The notes beneath the pieces were generated by a model. It made no database searches. It saw nothing but the letters and a program-made list of their open reading frames with translations, and was not told where the DNA came from. 6,262 nucleotides of DNA from assembly GCA_025453925.1 (NCBI GenBank), contig JALOPK010000198.1, positions 1 to 6,262 on the forward strand. Direction: 5' to 3'. Shown here piece by piece: positions 1 to 6,262 of the stretch. The translations under genes and the position numbers were made by a program. The stretch is from Candidatus Eiseniibacteriota bacterium (GTDB lineage Bacteria > JAFGKV01). Every line of letters starts with the position of its first letter. The stretch's first letter is position 1.

Positions 1-81
1 GAGAAGTACTCGGACAGCCGCTCCGTCTTCGCGCGATATCGCCCATCCAAGGGCGAGATCGCGCGGGAAGAGGCGATCTGA
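1..81 (+). CDS. C-terminal end of an unidentified protein (5' part outside window)
   Basis: An open frame enters from the left edge in frame 1 and stops at TGA (79-81), giving 26 residues that begin EKYSDSRSVF and end REEAI. About 22 of its 26 codons end in G or C, the codon bias expected of a real gene in this GC-rich genome. It ends 77 bp before the convergent purine operon ends, which is a sensible gene boundary. The tail is hydrophilic and charged, with no membrane segment. I do not recognise the family from so short a piece. Because it lies on the opposite strand it is not part of the purine operon. It could also be a chance open frame, since 26 codons is weak evidence. Confidence 0.5.
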   Translation, partial: EKYSDSRSVFARYRPSKGEIAREEAI

Positions 82-124
82 ACGGCAGTCATGGATGACG
101 GCCCGCGAGTGCGTTTTGTGGTTG

Positions 125-158: not shown

Positions 159-1553
159 TCACACGTCATGGGTGTCGCGGCGCGTCGCACGGTCTGCGGC
201 TCGAAGCTCTGACCGGGAGGCGTCGATCTCGGCAGCAAGTATTCTCTTGAGCCGTGGGAGGTTGAGGCTCCTGACGGCCGCCAGGGCCGCTGAGCGGGGG
301 TTCACCACCGTTGCCGCCGCCACTCCCGACGGCATCAGCAGTGAGGAGTTGATGTTGGCGAGGAAATCCGTCTGATCCTTGAACGGAGGACAGTTAATGA
401 CGGGGAGGGGCGTGTTGGCCGCCAGCGCGCCGCCGAGCCCGTTGGACATTCCCGCCACGGCGATGATGGCGCCCGGTTCGGCGGCATCGGAGTAGTCTCT
501 CAGGACCGTCGTCACATCCTCGGGGTTCTTGTGCGCCGAGACGACCCTGGTCTCGACGAACACCTCGTAGGGTTCCAGCGCGCTCACGATGCGCCCGCAA
601 TGATCGGCATCCTTCGGAGAGCCCATGATCACCGCAACGAAACCGTCGTGGATCAGCCCGTCTCGGGCCAGGTTGAGGCAGAGGCGCTGGGCGGGAGGAA
701 TCGAGGGCACGTCCAGCGTAGCGCCCGTGGTGACTTCGTAGATCGTCCGGTAGCGGCGACGGGCCTCGCTCACTACGTCGGCCGGCAGGGCCGAAGGCGT
801 CACCTCGGTCGCCCGCGTCTCCAGTAGGAATGCCCGGATGAACTCCTTGTCGAGACTCTCGGGCCGGGTCGAGTCTCGATCGTAGGAGTCGGCGCGCCAG
901 AAGCGTGACGAGTCTGGCGTGTGCAGCTCGTCGATGAGCATCAGCGTGCCGTCGCGAATGCCGAATTCGTACTTGGTATCAACCAGGAGAATCCCCTTTT
1001 CCGCCAGCGACGCGCGGCCGAACTCGAACAGCCGCCTGGCCGCATCGGTCATCTGTTCATAGATGGCGTCGGTGACCAGACCTGAGGCGACGATCTCGTA
1101 GGGCGTGATCTCGCGGTCGCTCTCCTCCTTGGTCGTCGGGGTGACGATCGGCTCGGGGAAGCGCCCATGACGCGACAGACCATCCGCCACCGTCACTCCT
1201 GAGAAGTTCCTCTTTCCCTGGGCGTACTGCCGCCACATGGAGCCGGTGAGGTAGCCTCTGACGATCATCTCGACGCGGATCGGGCTCACTTCCCGCACCA
1301 GCGACGCCTGTGGATCAACCACCCGGAGAAAGTGATTGGCCACGATATCCGTCGTGCGGGAGAACCAGAAGGCGGAGAGCCCGTTCAAGACGGCGCCCTT
1401 TTCGGGAATCGACGTGTCCAGCACGCGGTCGAAGGCCGAGACCCTGTCGGTGGTGATGATCAGGCGGGTGTCGCGGTCAACGCGAAAACTCTCCCTGACC
1501 TTACCGGAGTGGAGTCTGAGGAGCTGGGGAGTCCTGAAGTCGTCAAGCGTCAT
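159..1553 (-). CDS. purCE: Bifunctional SAICAR synthetase (PurC, Ade1 type) / class II AIR carboxylase (PurE) fusion
   Basis: A 464-residue fusion for two consecutive cytosolic steps: AIR to CAIR (PurE half), then CAIR plus aspartate and ATP to SAICAR (PurC half). The PurC half (about 8-280) resembles yeast Ade1: HSGKVRES (15-22, nucleotide loop), TTDRVSAFD (34-42), VRGYLTGSMW (98-107), VDTKYEFG (191-198) and DELHTPDSSRFW (208-219). A linker of about 25 residues leads to the PurE half (about 305-455): VAVIMGSPKDADHC (306-319), SAHKNPED (339-346), VAGMSNGLGGALAANTPLPVINCPP (366-390) and LMPSG (406-410). SAHK and AGxSNGLG, in place of the SAHR and AGGAAHLPGM of ordinary bacterial PurE, plus a charged C-terminal helix as in animal PAICS, mark class II, the form known to use CO2 directly without PurK. 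The frame runs through both domains without interruption. The ATG at 1553-1551 has a GAGG ribosome site and leaves the expected short leader before HSGKVRES. It is the last gene of the operon. Confidence 0.95.
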   Translation of the reverse strand: MTLDDFRTPQLLRLHSGKVRESFRVDRDTRLIITTDRVSAFDRVLDTSIPEKGAVLNGLSAFWFSRTTDIVANHFLRVVDPQASLVREVSPIRVEMIVRGYLTGSMWRQYAQGKRNFSGVTVADGLSRHGRFPEPIVTPTTKEESDREITPYEIVASGLVTDAIYEQMTDAARRLFEFGRASLAEKGILLVDTKYEFGIRDGTLMLIDELHTPDSSRFWRADSYDRDSTRPESLDKEFIRAFLLETRATEVTPSALPADVVSEARRRYRTIYEVTTGATLDVPSIPPAQRLCLNLARDGLIHDGFVAVIMGSPKDADHCGRIVSALEPYEVFVETRVVSAHKNPEDVTTVLRDYSDAAEPGAIIAVAGMSNGLGGALAANTPLPVINCPPFKDQTDFLANINSSLLMPSGVAAATVVNPRSAALAAVRSLNLPRLKRILAAEIDASRSELRAADRATRRDTHDV

Positions 1554-1607: not shown

Positions 1608-3242
1608 TCAATGCCGGAAGTGGCGGATGCCTGAGAACACCATGGCAACGCCGTGATTGTCCGCGCGCTGAATCACTGCCGCATCGCGCATCGATCCACC
1701 CGGCTGCACCACCAGCCGGATCCCGGCCCGCGCGCATGCGTCGACGTTGTCCGGGAAGGGGAAGAAACCGTCGGACACCAGCACGGCGCATCCAAGCTGA
1801 TCGCGCACATAGTCAGCCTGCGCGACCGGATCCGGGCATTCCCGCGCCAGGTTCTCCCGGCACTTGCTCAGCGCCAGCTCGATGGAGCAGACGCGGTTGG
1901 GCTGACCGCAGCCCATCCCCATCAGCTGGCAGGCGCCCCCGGGGAGTCTGCGGGCCACGGCGATGCCGTTGGACGCGATCTGCCGGACCGCGACGAGCGC
2001 GAACTCGATGAGCGGCCGGTCAAGATCCCGCGAGACGCCCCCCACGGTCCTGAGTTCATTGCAGAGGGATCCATCGGCGTCCTGAACCAGCGCGGTGTGC
2101 ATGGCCAGGCGCATCTCTCGGGAGGCCGCCAGGTTCTCGGGCGGTGTGACCACCACCCGAAGGTTTGGATGAGACGTGAGATAGCCGAGAGCTTCATCGT
2201 CGAAGGCGGGGGCCGCAATCACCTCGAGGAACTTGCGCCTCGCCCTGTCAGGGGAGGTGAGCTCGAGGAACTCAACCGTCGGGCGGCTGACGGGCGTGTT
2301 GAATGCCACGACCGAGCCGAACGCGGAGACGGGGTCGCCTTCCCAGGCCAGTTCGAAGGCCTGTCGCTGGTCGCCGGCGGTGGCCATCCCGCAGGGGTTG
2401 GTGTGCTTCACGACGGACACGGCATGCGCCCCAAGATCACGCACCGCTTCCAGAGCGCGCTGCATGTCGACGAGATTGTTGAAGGATAGCTCCTTGCCGT
2501 GGAGCACCTGGCAGTCACAAAGGGCGTGCGAGGCACCTCGGACTCGGTACACCATTGCCCGCTGATGGGGGTTCTCTCCGTAGCGGGGCGCCCGGCCGCC
2601 CTCCAGGGCGAGCCGCATGGTCATTCGCCCGGCCAGTGAATCCAGTGCCGTCGTGATGTCGGACTCGTAGTCGGCGCTGAGAGCGAAGGCGGTGCGCATC
2701 AACGCAAGGCGGGTCTCCAGGGTCAGCGCGCCGTTCTGCCGTTGCAGCTCCTGAATGATGGCGGGGTAGTCCCGCGGGTCGCACACCACGGCAACGAAGC
2801 GCGCGTTCTTGGCGGCGGCTCTGACCATGGTAGGACCCCCAATGTCGATGTACTCGACCAGTCCATCGAGGTCCAGGCCCCTGGCGGCGGCAGAGCCGAA
2901 GGGGTAGAACGTGCAGACCACCATGTCGATGGGCTGGACTCCGAGGCGAGCGGCCTCCTCGGCATGACGCTCCCGGTGGAACAGCAGCGAAGAGGCGAGA
3001 CTGAAGGAGATGGTCTTCATCCGGCCGTCGAAGGCGGCCGGATTGCCCGTCACCGCCGAGACATCGGTGGTAGGTATGCCGGCCGCCGCCAGATAGTCCC
3101 GCGTTCCACCGCTGGAAATCAGCTCACATCCGAATGAAGCAAGGCAGCGGGCGAGGTCGTCGATTCCGGTCTTGTCATAGGTGCTCAGGAGTGCGCGGCG
3201 CACCGGGCGCGGTGGAACGTCAGGCAGAGGTGAGTCGTTCAT
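1608..3242 (-). CDS. purH: Bifunctional AICAR transformylase / IMP cyclohydrolase
   Basis: This 544-residue cytosolic enzyme carries out the last two steps to IMP: formylation of AICAR with 10-formyl-tetrahydrofolate, then ring closure. The N-terminal cyclohydrolase domain (about 14-200) shows ALLSTYDKTGI (17-27), SSGGT (43-47), GRMKT (73-77), FYPF (112-115), IDIGG (132-136) and AAAKN (142-146), keeping the Lys, Tyr, Asp and Lys of the known active site. The transformylase domain (about 205-544) shows RYGENPHQ (220-227), KELSFNNL (250-257), the catalytic VKHTNPCG (278-285), DPVSAFGS (303-310), SNG (424-426), FFPFPD (493-498), QPGGSMRD (513-520) and the terminal RHFRH. The canonical HPxVHxGIL after GRxKT is replaced by SFSLASSLLF (79-88), a divergent form. 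Length is close to the usual 510-590. The ATG overlaps the purQ stop as ATGA; GGAG at 3254-3257 is a somewhat distant ribosome site, so translational coupling to purQ is likely. A GTG at residue 14 is a less likely alternative start. Confidence 0.97.
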   Translation of the reverse strand: MNDSPLPDVPPRPVRRALLSTYDKTGIDDLARCLASFGCELISSGGTRDYLAAAGIPTTDVSAVTGNPAAFDGRMKTISFSLASSLLFHRERHAEEAARLGVQPIDMVVCTFYPFGSAAARGLDLDGLVEYIDIGGPTMVRAAAKNARFVAVVCDPRDYPAIIQELQRQNGALTLETRLALMRTAFALSADYESDITTALDSLAGRMTMRLALEGGRAPRYGENPHQRAMVYRVRGASHALCDCQVLHGKELSFNNLVDMQRALEAVRDLGAHAVSVVKHTNPCGMATAGDQRQAFELAWEGDPVSAFGSVVAFNTPVSRPTVEFLELTSPDRARRKFLEVIAAPAFDDEALGYLTSHPNLRVVVTPPENLAASREMRLAMHTALVQDADGSLCNELRTVGGVSRDLDRPLIEFALVAVRQIASNGIAVARRLPGGACQLMGMGCGQPNRVCSIELALSKCRENLARECPDPVAQADYVRDQLGCAVLVSDGFFPFPDNVDACARAGIRLVVQPGGSMRDAAVIQRADNHGVAMVFSGIRHFRH

Positions 3243-4048
3243 CGGTTCAGGTGCTCCACGATGTTGCGGAAGATCGCCAGGCCCGCTCCTTCGTCCGAGG
3301 ATGCCTCCGCGATCTTCCTGCCCCAGTCAGGATGATGGTAGATCGACACGTGGGCCTCCGGATGAGGCATCATGCCCAGGATCTGGCCGGTCACGTCGGT
3401 CAATCCTGCACACGCCAGCTCGGACCCGTTGGGGTTCAACGGATAGTCGTCGGTGGGCATGCCCGCCGCATCGCAGTATGAGAGGCAGTTGAGACCGTTC
3501 TCCAGAATGCTCCGCCTGATGCCCTCGTCGCGGATGATCAGCCGCCCCTCACCGTGCCGAACGGGAAGGTCGATGGCGCTGATTCCCCAGAGGAACGGTG
3601 TTCGCCACGGCACCGCGGCGGTGCAGCGACACCAGCGGTCTTCGAATCTTCCCGAGCGGTTGGCGGCCAGAGTGACCTCCTGCTCCATGCGTCCGCGGGT
3701 ATTGGGCAGAAGCCCCATCTTCACCAGGATCTGGAAGCCGTTGCAGATTCCGATGACGTGGTTCCCATCCGCCAGGAAGCGCTCCAGACGATCGCGGAAC
3801 AAGGTGCCAGACCGGGTTCGCCGGTGAAGGAGCTTGTTTGCCAGTGCTTTACCCGCGCCAAGATCATCGCCGAAGGAAAAACCCCCGGGAAAGGCCAGAA
3901 CGTTGAAGTCCACCAATGAGCATCGCTCGTCGAACAGGTCGTTCACGTGCACGATCTCCGAGTCGCCGCCGGCCAGGCGGAAGGCCGCGGCCGTCTCCTC
4001 CTCGCAGTTGATGCCGAGACCGGTGAGCACGAGCGCTCGCGCTCTCAC
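3239..4048 (-). CDS. purQ: FGAM synthase, glutamine amidotransferase subunit PurQ
   Basis: PurQ hydrolyses glutamine and passes ammonia to PurL for FGAR to FGAM. It is a single class I glutamine amidotransferase domain. Visible motifs are FPGGFSFGDDLGAGKALANK (53-72), the nucleophile elbow GICNGFQIL with Cys102 (100-108), PVRHGEG (162-168), YPLNPNGS (202-209) and GMMPHPE with catalytic His229 and Glu231 (225-231). At 269 residues it is longer than the Bacillus type (about 227); its HGEGR and terminal IFRN stretches resemble the amidotransferase domain of large one-chain FGAM synthases. I chose the GTG at 4048-4046: it leaves only six residues before the first beta strand (LVLTGLGIN), overlaps the purL stop as GTGA, and has GAGGTG four bases upstream. 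The frame stays open to an upstream ATG (4174), but that 42-residue addition lies inside purL and resembles no PurQ. The 4-bp overlap fits coupled synthesis of the two subunits. Confidence 0.95.
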   Translation of the reverse strand: MRARALVLTGLGINCEEETAAAFRLAGGDSEIVHVNDLFDERCSLVDFNVLAFPGGFSFGDDLGAGKALANKLLHRRTRSGTLFRDRLERFLADGNHVIGICNGFQILVKMGLLPNTRGRMEQEVTLAANRSGRFEDRWCRCTAAVPWRTPFLWGISAIDLPVRHGEGRLIIRDEGIRRSILENGLNCLSYCDAAGMPTDDYPLNPNGSELACAGLTDVTGQILGMMPHPEAHVSIYHHPDWGRKIAEASSDEGAGLAIFRNIVEHLNR

Positions 4049-6262
4049 AGCACACCTCGAAGTCCCATGCTCCAGCGGTCGGCAACGTCCGTGAGGCAGA
4101 GATCCACCAACGGCTCGATGCCCCAGAGAAGGACCAGCCTGTCGGATCCCGTGACTTCGCCAAGGAACATGCAATCGTCGCCCAGAAGCCTCTCGAAGGC
4201 CGCGCAGTCCCTGGGCGCCACCGATACCACAAACCGCGAATGTGACTCGGAGAACAGCGCTCCCTCGGGATCAAGGCCCGTGGTTTCGACATCGGCACGG
4301 ATCCCCAGTCCGCTGCCGATGGCCGCTTCGGCCAGGGCCACGGCAAGGCCGCCGTCGGAGATGTCGTGGCACGATGCCGGCAACCGCTTCCGGTGGGCAT
4401 CGCTCAATGCTCGGTAGATCCGGCTGGCGTCATCTCTCCGTACTCGGGGCACCGACGCGCCCACCTCGTCGAACAGCCGGAAGAACTCCGAGGCGCCCAG
4501 CTCGCGGTGGGTGCGCCCTACGAGGTAGATCCTGTCACCGGGCCTCTTGAATTCCGAGGTGGTGACGAGGCGAATATCCTCGATGCCGGAGACCATTGAG
4601 TAGAGCACCGTGGGCGGCACCGAGATCTTCACGCCGTCTCGGAGCAGATCGTTCTTCATGCTGTCCTTCCCCGAGGTCAGGGGAATGCCGAAGAACGTCG
4701 ACATGTCGTAGAGCGCCTCGCACATGCGCACCAGTTTTCCGAGCTTCACCTTGCCATCAGGATTGGTCACGGGATGGTACGCGGAGTCCGGTACGCAGAA
4801 GTTGTCGTTCACGGACCAGAAGGGCAGGCCGGTGTCCGGGTCAGGCAGCCGGCCGCCGACAGCGATGATGCCGCGCAGGGCCTCGTCGAACGCACCGGCG
4901 GACATCTGATACGGATCAATGTCGCCATAGCGGGGGAGAATGCCATTCGACACCGCGATCCCGGCATAGGAATCGAATCCCAGCCTCAGCACGGCGGCGT
5001 CCTGGGGGGCGCGGCCGGCAGGCCCCATCAGCGGCTTCACCACGGTCCGCGCTTTCACCTCATGGTCGTAACGCCGGATCACCTCTTCACGGGAGCAGAT
5101 GTTCAAGCTCCCCATCAACCGGAGAAGCGTTTCTCCGTAATCGCTGATCGGGGAGAGAATGGGGTCGCACCCCTGAGGCCGGCCCCATTCCGCCTCGAGA
5201 TGTTTGCGGGGGACTCCATCGTGGAGGAATCCAAGGTCCAGAAACGCCACCCGTTGGTCGGCAAAGCGCACGTCCAGCATGCCCGAGGCCCGGAAGACGC
5301 CGATGTCCGTTGCCTCGACCTCGAATCGAGCCGCGAGTTCGCGGAGAGGCTCCAGGTCCTCCGGCCGGACTACCAGCGTCATCCGCTCCTGCGACTCGGA
5401 GAGGAAGATCTCCCAGGGAGCGAGCCCGGGGTACTTCAGCGGCACGTTCTGGAGGTGCACCTCGGCCCCTCCACTGAGCCTGGCCAGTTCCCCCACCGAC
5501 GAGGAGAGCCCCCCCGCGCCGTTATCGGTCGAGCATCGCACCAGGCCTTCGACGCAGGCCCGTTCCAGGAAGTCCGCCAGGTTCTTCTGCGTGATGGGGC
5601 TTCCGATCTGAACGGCCGAGCGGGGTGAATGCTCGCCGATCTCCAGCGACGAGAACGTCGCGCCATGAATGCCGTCCCTGCCCACGCGCCCTCCGGCCAT
5701 GACGATCCGGTCACCGGGCTCGACGTGTTTCTCCCAGGAGGGTCTCCCGTTGTACTCCGCGGGCATCAGTGCGCCCGTGCCGCAGAACACCAGCGGTTTT
5801 CCCATGAAACGCGCGTCGAAGACGATGGCGCCGTTCACGGTGGGGATTCCCGACTTGTTGCCTCCGTCCTCTATGCCCTTCACCACGCCTGCCATGATCC
5901 GGCGGGGGTGGAGCTGTCCCGTGAGCAGCTTCCCTTGGTAGCCCGGGTCGCCGAAGCAGAGCACATCGGTATTGAACAGGCACCGTGCGCCGCCGACCCC
6001 TGTGCCCATCGGGTCGCGGTTGACGCCCACGATGCCGGTGAGCGCACCGCCATACGGATCCAACGCGGAAGGTGAGTTGTGCGTCTCAACCTTCCACACC
6101 AGCACGCGGTCGTCGTCAACCCGCACCGCCCCGGCGTTGTCGGAGAACACGCTCAGGAGCCATGACGCTCCCGTCCGGTCCAGTCTCTCCCTGACGACGT
6201 CCGTGGCGCCACGGATGAAGGTGGAGAAAAGCGAGTCCACCGTGCGCACTCCACCGTCGTCA
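4045..6262 (-). CDS. purL: FGAM synthase, synthetase subunit PurL (N-terminus outside window)
   Basis: PurL binds FGAR and ATP and makes FGAM with ammonia from PurQ. The last 738 residues are visible, and the frame is open to the right edge (DDGGVRTVDSLF...), so the GTG at 6249-6247 is internal and the true start lies outside. It has duplicated AIR-synthase-like halves. In visible numbering, the first half shows DNAGAV (41-46) and KVETHNSPSALDPYGGALTG (57-76), followed by GVNRDPMGTG and STDNGAGGLSSS. The second half shows FDSYAGIAVSNG, LTSGKDSMKND, CHDISDGGLAVALAEAA (about 631-647) and FSESHSRFVV (about 670-679). With 738 residues still lacking the N-terminal part, the protein is longer than Bacillus PurL (about 740 in full). 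SGKDSM is typical of the large one-chain enzyme, yet the chain ends (MGLRGVL) without an amidotransferase domain, which purQ supplies. The missing part may include a fused PurS domain, as in PurSL proteins of some deltaproteobacteria; this cannot be tested here. Confidence 0.95.
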   Translation of the reverse strand, partial: DDGGVRTVDSLFSTFIRGATDVVRERLDRTGASWLLSVFSDNAGAVRVDDDRVLVWKVETHNSPSALDPYGGALTGIVGVNRDPMGTGVGGARCLFNTDVLCFGDPGYQGKLLTGQLHPRRIMAGVVKGIEDGGNKSGIPTVNGAIVFDARFMGKPLVFCGTGALMPAEYNGRPSWEKHVEPGDRIVMAGGRVGRDGIHGATFSSLEIGEHSPRSAVQIGSPITQKNLADFLERACVEGLVRCSTDNGAGGLSSSVGELARLSGGAEVHLQNVPLKYPGLAPWEIFLSESQERMTLVVRPEDLEPLRELAARFEVEATDIGVFRASGMLDVRFADQRVAFLDLGFLHDGVPRKHLEAEWGRPQGCDPILSPISDYGETLLRLMGSLNICSREEVIRRYDHEVKARTVVKPLMGPAGRAPQDAAVLRLGFDSYAGIAVSNGILPRYGDIDPYQMSAGAFDEALRGIIAVGGRLPDPDTGLPFWSVNDNFCVPDSAYHPVTNPDGKVKLGKLVRMCEALYDMSTFFGIPLTSGKDSMKNDLLRDGVKISVPPTVLYSMVSGIEDIRLVTTSEFKRPGDRIYLVGRTHRELGASEFFRLFDEVGASVPRVRRDDASRIYRALSDAHRKRLPASCHDISDGGLAVALAEAAIGSGLGIRADVETTGLDPEGALFSESHSRFVVSVAPRDCAAFERLLGDDCMFLGEVTGSDRLVLLWGIEPLVDLCLTDVADRWSMGLRGVL
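4053..4058 (-). promoter_or_regulatory. Ribosome binding site fixing the GTG start of purQ
   Basis: On the minus strand GAGGTG, a good Shine-Dalgarno match, lies four bases before GTG (4048-4046), inside the last codons of purL. It supports the GTG as the real purQ start rather than the ATG about 126 bases further upstream. Confidence 0.6.

Follow-up and report, generated by a model that had tools for sequence, protein, structure and literature searches.

The purCE gene of Candidatus Eiseniibacteriota very probably encodes a bifunctional enzyme covering steps 6 and 7 of purine biosynthesis, PAICS-like in its work and fused separately, from neighbouring genes of an operon. A recent review describes bacteria with separate PurK, PurE and PurC and vertebrates with fused PAICS (PMC10912719). 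No description of a bacterial PurCE fusion was found in the open-licence literature, where absence is not proof of novelty, and purCE is a real, uncommon version of two well-understood enzymes rather than a novel kind of system.

Like PAICS (2h31, 6yb8, 4ja0), purCE is a single chain with PurC ahead of a class II PurE, carries the PurE active-site loop motifs and is predicted to need no PurK. However, it is a gene of a bacterial operon, its PurC is the long Ade1 form (around 280 residues plus a tail) instead of the short form, its linker differs, and so does the predicted orientation of its domains (around 21 Å over the whole chain). Judged by these comparisons, purCE appears to be functionally like PAICS and separate in origin at the PurC half.

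The fused frame and its operon

The window, that is, the whole stretch of 6,262 nucleotides that was analysed, contains a run of purine genes, all on the minus strand, in the order purL–purQ–purH–purCE–purB. The features are as follows.

1..92, minus strand: purB, first 30 codons (MTAVQIASSRAISPLDGRY...), cut by the contig end; matches the start of the purB that follows purCE in the congener G001
159..1553, minus strand: purCE, putative bifunctional SAICAR synthetase (long Ade1-type PurC)–AIR carboxylase (class II PurE), 464 aa; open reading frame with Pfam SAICAR_synt and AIRC, same fusion in G001, L037 and family f247, model pLDDT 94
162..641, minus strand: class II PurE (AIR carboxylase) domain, residues 305–464; PDB matches, class II clade 100/100, fold Z 22.3 to 3rg8
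642..719, minus strand: linker, residues 279–304; similar to the tail that ends stand-alone long-form PurC
720..1553, minus strand: PurC domain, residues 1–278; best PDB relatives by sequence yeast Ade1 and M. abscessus PurC, fold Z 33.8, rmsd 2.0
1608..3242, minus strand: purH, 544 aa, upstream neighbour of purCE; NCBIfam NF002049 480 bits, cut-off 402
3239..4048, minus strand: purQ, probable GTG start at 4048 inferred from sequence, 4-nt overlap with the purL stop; Pfam GATase_5
4045..6261, minus strand: purL, 5′ end lost at the contig end; TIGR01736 471 bits, under the cut-off of 526

The original prediction had placed an uninterrupted 464-residue frame at 159–1553, and these coordinates proved exact, with the gene on the minus strand. 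Read from 1553 to 159, a single frame runs from ATG to TGA with zero internal stops, while the plus-strand frame over the same interval is riddled with them. Pfam locates SAICAR_synt at residues 14–245 (E 3e-66) and AIRC at residues 306–433 (E 2e-33) of this same frame, confirming the predicted PAICS domain order, PurC and then PurE in one chain. The NCBIfam purC and purE models score purCE under both curated cut-offs. The motifs seen in the protein are TTDRVSAFD, VRGYLTGSMW, DELHTPDSSRFW, SAHK, AGMSNGLGG and INCPP.

In the window, purQ and purH overlap by 4 bases, and purL and purQ would also overlap by 4 bases if the GTG at 4048 is the start of purQ. The operon of G360, a genome of another phylum, reads purM–L–Q–H–CE–B–D–N–F and holds every other step to IMP; it also contains a glutamine amidotransferase with no assigned role (L151:12839-13540) and a frame of 120 aa (L151:9771-10133). 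PurL measures around 1000 aa in G001 and G360 (L117:9941-12994; L151:13763-16756; the window copy at 4045-6261 is cut), with an extra N-terminal region of around 240 aa that partially matches large FGAM synthase. Combined with a separate purQ gene, this PurL is intermediate between the small and the large forms.

The source genome (G000) consists of 502 contigs and is 82% complete, the window is one entire 6.3-kb contig, and adjacent unfused purC–purE genes are common elsewhere; all of this would favour an artefact of assembly or binning that joined two neighbouring genes. Such an artefact is nevertheless exceedingly improbable. The same fused frame is present in G001 (67% identity), in the KSB1 bin L037 (54% identity) and in ten genomes of family f247, among them G360, whose whole assembly is a single contig; given its presence in these independent assemblies, assembly did not make purCE. 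Furthermore, in a comparison with G001, third codon positions account for most of the substitutions in either domain (145 of 264 and 89 of 166), so that the bias extends to both sides of the join. The frame is thus genuinely fused, as had been predicted.

Across 386 surveyed genomes, with most families represented by one to three, a fusion was found outside the window's genus in two, G360 and G364. The phylum of G000 is represented by three genomes. Within family f247, which belongs to the phylum of G360 and not to that of the window, 11 of the 15 genomes match, ten with the full fusion and one partially; none of the 25 genomes from other families of that phylum matches at the strict threshold, with a query that would miss any fusion containing a short-form PurC. 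The purCE fusion is real, conserved and rare among bacteria. It is not private to the window's lineage, its clade being conserved in a family of another phylum.

In the sister genus, the contig of G002 ends in short repeats around 300 bases past purH (L162:10928-11240), and PurC and class II PurE were not found in the rest of this 98% complete genome. A loss of purCE in G002 is not claimed because of that contig end.

The stock of the two halves

Comparisons with the PDB place the PurC half with the long form. It scores 178 bits against yeast Ade1 and 156 against M. abscessus PurC, versus 26 against insect PAICS and 20 against human PAICS, whereas in the reverse check a short-form bacterial PurC scores 121 bits against human PAICS and 58 against yeast Ade1. 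The PurC tree, comprising 72 rows with PAICS PurC absent, splits the long and short forms on starred branches (99/95 and 100/97) and sets the window clade beside the yeast/mycobacterial group (88/85). Identity to yeast Ade1 (1a48) and M. abscessus PurC (3r9r) is 33–38%, with fold Z of 31–34 over residues 2–282. Unlike these stand-alone proteins, purCE has PurE after the C-terminal tail. The motifs GKVR, VDTKYEFG, DELHTPDSSR and DKxxxR are kept, their mapping to PAICS being by motif. On this sequence evidence the PurC half is assigned to the long Ade1/mycobacterial form and not to the short form of PAICS, in agreement with the original prediction.

Long-form PurC was also seen inside open frames of around 800–850 aa in L003, L133 (G053), L088 and L098. 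They could reflect further purC fusions, or else spurious long frames caused by GC-rich sequence.

The PurE half scores 103 bits against insect PAICS (4ja0), 84 against human PAICS (2h31), 75 against T. denticola PurE and at most 57 against class I enzymes. A 49-sequence tree separates class II, to which the window half, T. denticola PurE and PAICS all belong, from class I at 100/100. By fold, T. denticola PurE is the top match (Z 22.3) and class I reaches at most 20.2, a small gap. The half shares around 31–33% identity with the T. denticola enzyme (3rg8/3rgg), as well as its SAHK and AGxSN loops, but is fused to PurC where that enzyme stands alone. Tree, scores and loops together place it in the class II AIR carboxylase family, the class originally proposed.

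Eighteen residues have been listed for the AIR carboxylase site of human PAICS (PMC9376930). Mapped by the PDB-search alignment, 15 of these 18 are identical in the window PurE, among them the general base His303 (H341), Ser301 (S339) and Lys304 (K342), and the AGxSN loop is present as AGMSNGL. The three changes relative to human PAICS are T275P, S276K and R331M, the last two corresponding to Lys314 and Met369 of the window protein; positions S276 and R331 contact the AIR phosphate in the human enzyme (PMC9376930). Neither S276K nor R331M occurs in the f247 relatives compared, where the Arg is kept and the Ser usually so. The charged C-terminal helix that had been likened to that of PAICS is present, but it is not PAICS-specific, as unfused Chloroflexota class II PurE ends in a similar '..DDAELR..'.

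The identical domain order could be taken to mean that purCE is a true PAICS, with animal and bacterial fusions sharing a fused ancestor or having been exchanged between bacteria and eukaryotes. The PurE halves are compatible with this idea, since a single clade of the window sequences and PAICS has p 0.41 in the PurE tree. However, the contrasting bit scores of the PurC halves speak against it, as do the starred branches that divide long from short PurC (PAICS PurC lying outside that tree), and we consider common descent very unlikely. purCE has the domain order of PAICS and lacks its short-form PurC half. As the PurC halves are of different forms, the whole fusion would have arisen separately from PAICS. 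The predicted independence from PAICS thus stands for the fusion as a whole; the PurE half taken alone may share a source with that of PAICS. PurE grouping with class I, PurC grouping with PAICS and an assembly-made fusion, the outcomes named beforehand as counting against the prediction, were none of them found.

Predicted chemistry and domain arrangement

A profile search gave no PurK over the cut-off in G000, G001, G360, G364 and G213, nor in 14 further genomes with a fused or nearby class II purE, while PurK was found in 11 of 14 control genomes; the absence rests mainly on G001 (94% complete) and G360 (100%), G000 being only 82% complete. The sole other AIRC domain in G000 belongs to LarB, and the presence of a second PurE in this genome was rejected on that basis. 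The lack of a recognisable PurK in G000 and its relatives fits a direct, ATP-free carboxylation of AIR with CO2.

The incompleteness of G000, together with other ATP-grasp proteins that score weakly against PurK in related genomes, would leave room for a PurE half acting as an N5-CAIR mutase, with class I chemistry, fed by an unrecognised PurK. Against this stand the position of the half inside class II at 100/100 and the PurK searches of G000, G001 and G360, which render the mutase chemistry highly improbable. Under the favoured bifunctional enzyme, the class II PurE half would convert AIR and CO2 into CAIR with neither ATP nor PurK, as its class, active site and genomic context suggest, and the Ade1-type PurC half would then form SAICAR from CAIR, Asp and ATP, as expected from its family and motifs. 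The likely benefit of joining them is a fixed 1:1 supply of both activities and proximity for the labile CAIR.

As a separate observation, the stand-alone AIRC match of G095 (L154) is strong (191 bits), and its long-form purC has a linker-like tail; PurK over the cut-off was not found in this 92% complete genome.

The AlphaFold monomer model of purCE has a pLDDT of 94 and a pTM of 0.90. Its PurC half fits Ade1 at 2.0 Å over 274 residues (2cnq, Z 33.8) and its PurE half fits T. denticola PurE at 2.6 Å over 156 residues. While each domain alone matches its PDB relatives this closely, the whole monomer fits PAICS only at around 21 Å; in the model, the domains are therefore oriented differently from those of PAICS, and the monomer lends no support to an arrangement like that of PAICS.

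In general, PurE enzymes form octamers, in line with the title of record 3oow, which would favour an oligomeric assembly in which CAIR is channelled through a tunnel, as has been proposed for PAICS. Such channelling would be an addition to the bifunctional enzyme proposed here, not an alternative to it. However, yeast Ade1 is monomeric, unlike the dimeric PurC of PAICS, the linker is poorly conserved, and the modelled orientation of the domains differs. Although a tunnel linking both active sites has been proposed for octameric human PAICS (PMC9376930), its presence in purCE is doubtful. A broader scenario, in which a PAICS-like enzyme arose at least twice in bacteria from other PurC stock and passes CAIR by a non-PAICS route between differently oriented domains, is regarded as unlikely in its entirety.

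Origin and number of the fusions

The linker shows 31–38% identity; between congeners the value is 38%, in comparison with 66–69% in the domains. Its sequence ('..RLCLNLARDGLIHDG..') is similar to the C-terminal tail that long-form PurC has where it stands alone ('..RIIRNLRNYGMLKA' in G095). Adjoining but unfused purC and class II purE genes, in that order, occur in many Chloroflexota and in some bins labelled Acidimicrobiia and Deltaproteobacteria, their open frames being a few bases apart or overlapping; in G213, for example, the order is purQ–purC–purE–purB, with a 4-base overlap between the unfused purC and purE. Since such operon pairs are common and the linker is like a PurC tail, the fusion probably arose when two neighbours in an operon were joined. 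Unfused pairs and tails suggest that a purine operon carried a long-form purC beside a class II purE and that these two genes merged into a single frame, the ordinary PurC tail acting as the linker and little sequence needing to be added. The loss of a stop codon or a small deletion within the operon would be the simplest route.

Three same-frame pairs with the genes one stop apart (L038, L041 and L043) are not claimed as almost fused, because L041 and L043 have a purine-rich, ribosome-site-like stretch ahead of the ATG of purE and chance alone would put a third of such pairs in the same frame.

The fusions of the window, G001, L037 and G360 group together as a single clade in the PurC tree (99/99) and in the PurE tree (100/99), and the sequences of family f247 belong to this clade in both halves. 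A tree of the clade puts the window's genus and L037 on a long branch, either beside f247 or within it, and a transfer of the fusion between phyla is possible on this topology.

Other bacterial fusions, in L040/L042, L039 and L152 (G364), share the domain order, the single frame and the long-form PurC. L040 and L042, from Sericytochromatia-type bins, pair with each other; uniting them with the window clade gives an AU p of 0.16 for PurC, and in the PurE tree the pair joins the window clade weakly (78/74). In contrast, L039, from a Chloroflexota-like bin, sits among Chloroflexota-type sequences and appears to be a separate event. One origin for all bacterial fusions was rejected for L039 in both halves (AU p 0.004 for PurC and 0.0006 for PurE), and at least two bacterial PurC–PurE joinings are therefore indicated by the trees, besides the animal one.

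Unlike the window clade, L152 (L152:8541-9965, plus strand) has a very divergent PurE half (branch 5.65), with AGS for MGS, SAHRDP and TGLSNAKG. This half may represent a different type of PurE or a degenerate form, and its place in the tree is unsure. The sole other AIRC domain of G364 is carried by a frame of 278 aa, a length like that of LarB.

That bacteria have fused PurC with class II PurE more than once, from a PurC stock that is not that of animals, makes it possible to ask in a natural experiment whether the lability of CAIR favours joining these two steps. The bacterial purCE fusions can also serve as comparators for PAICS.
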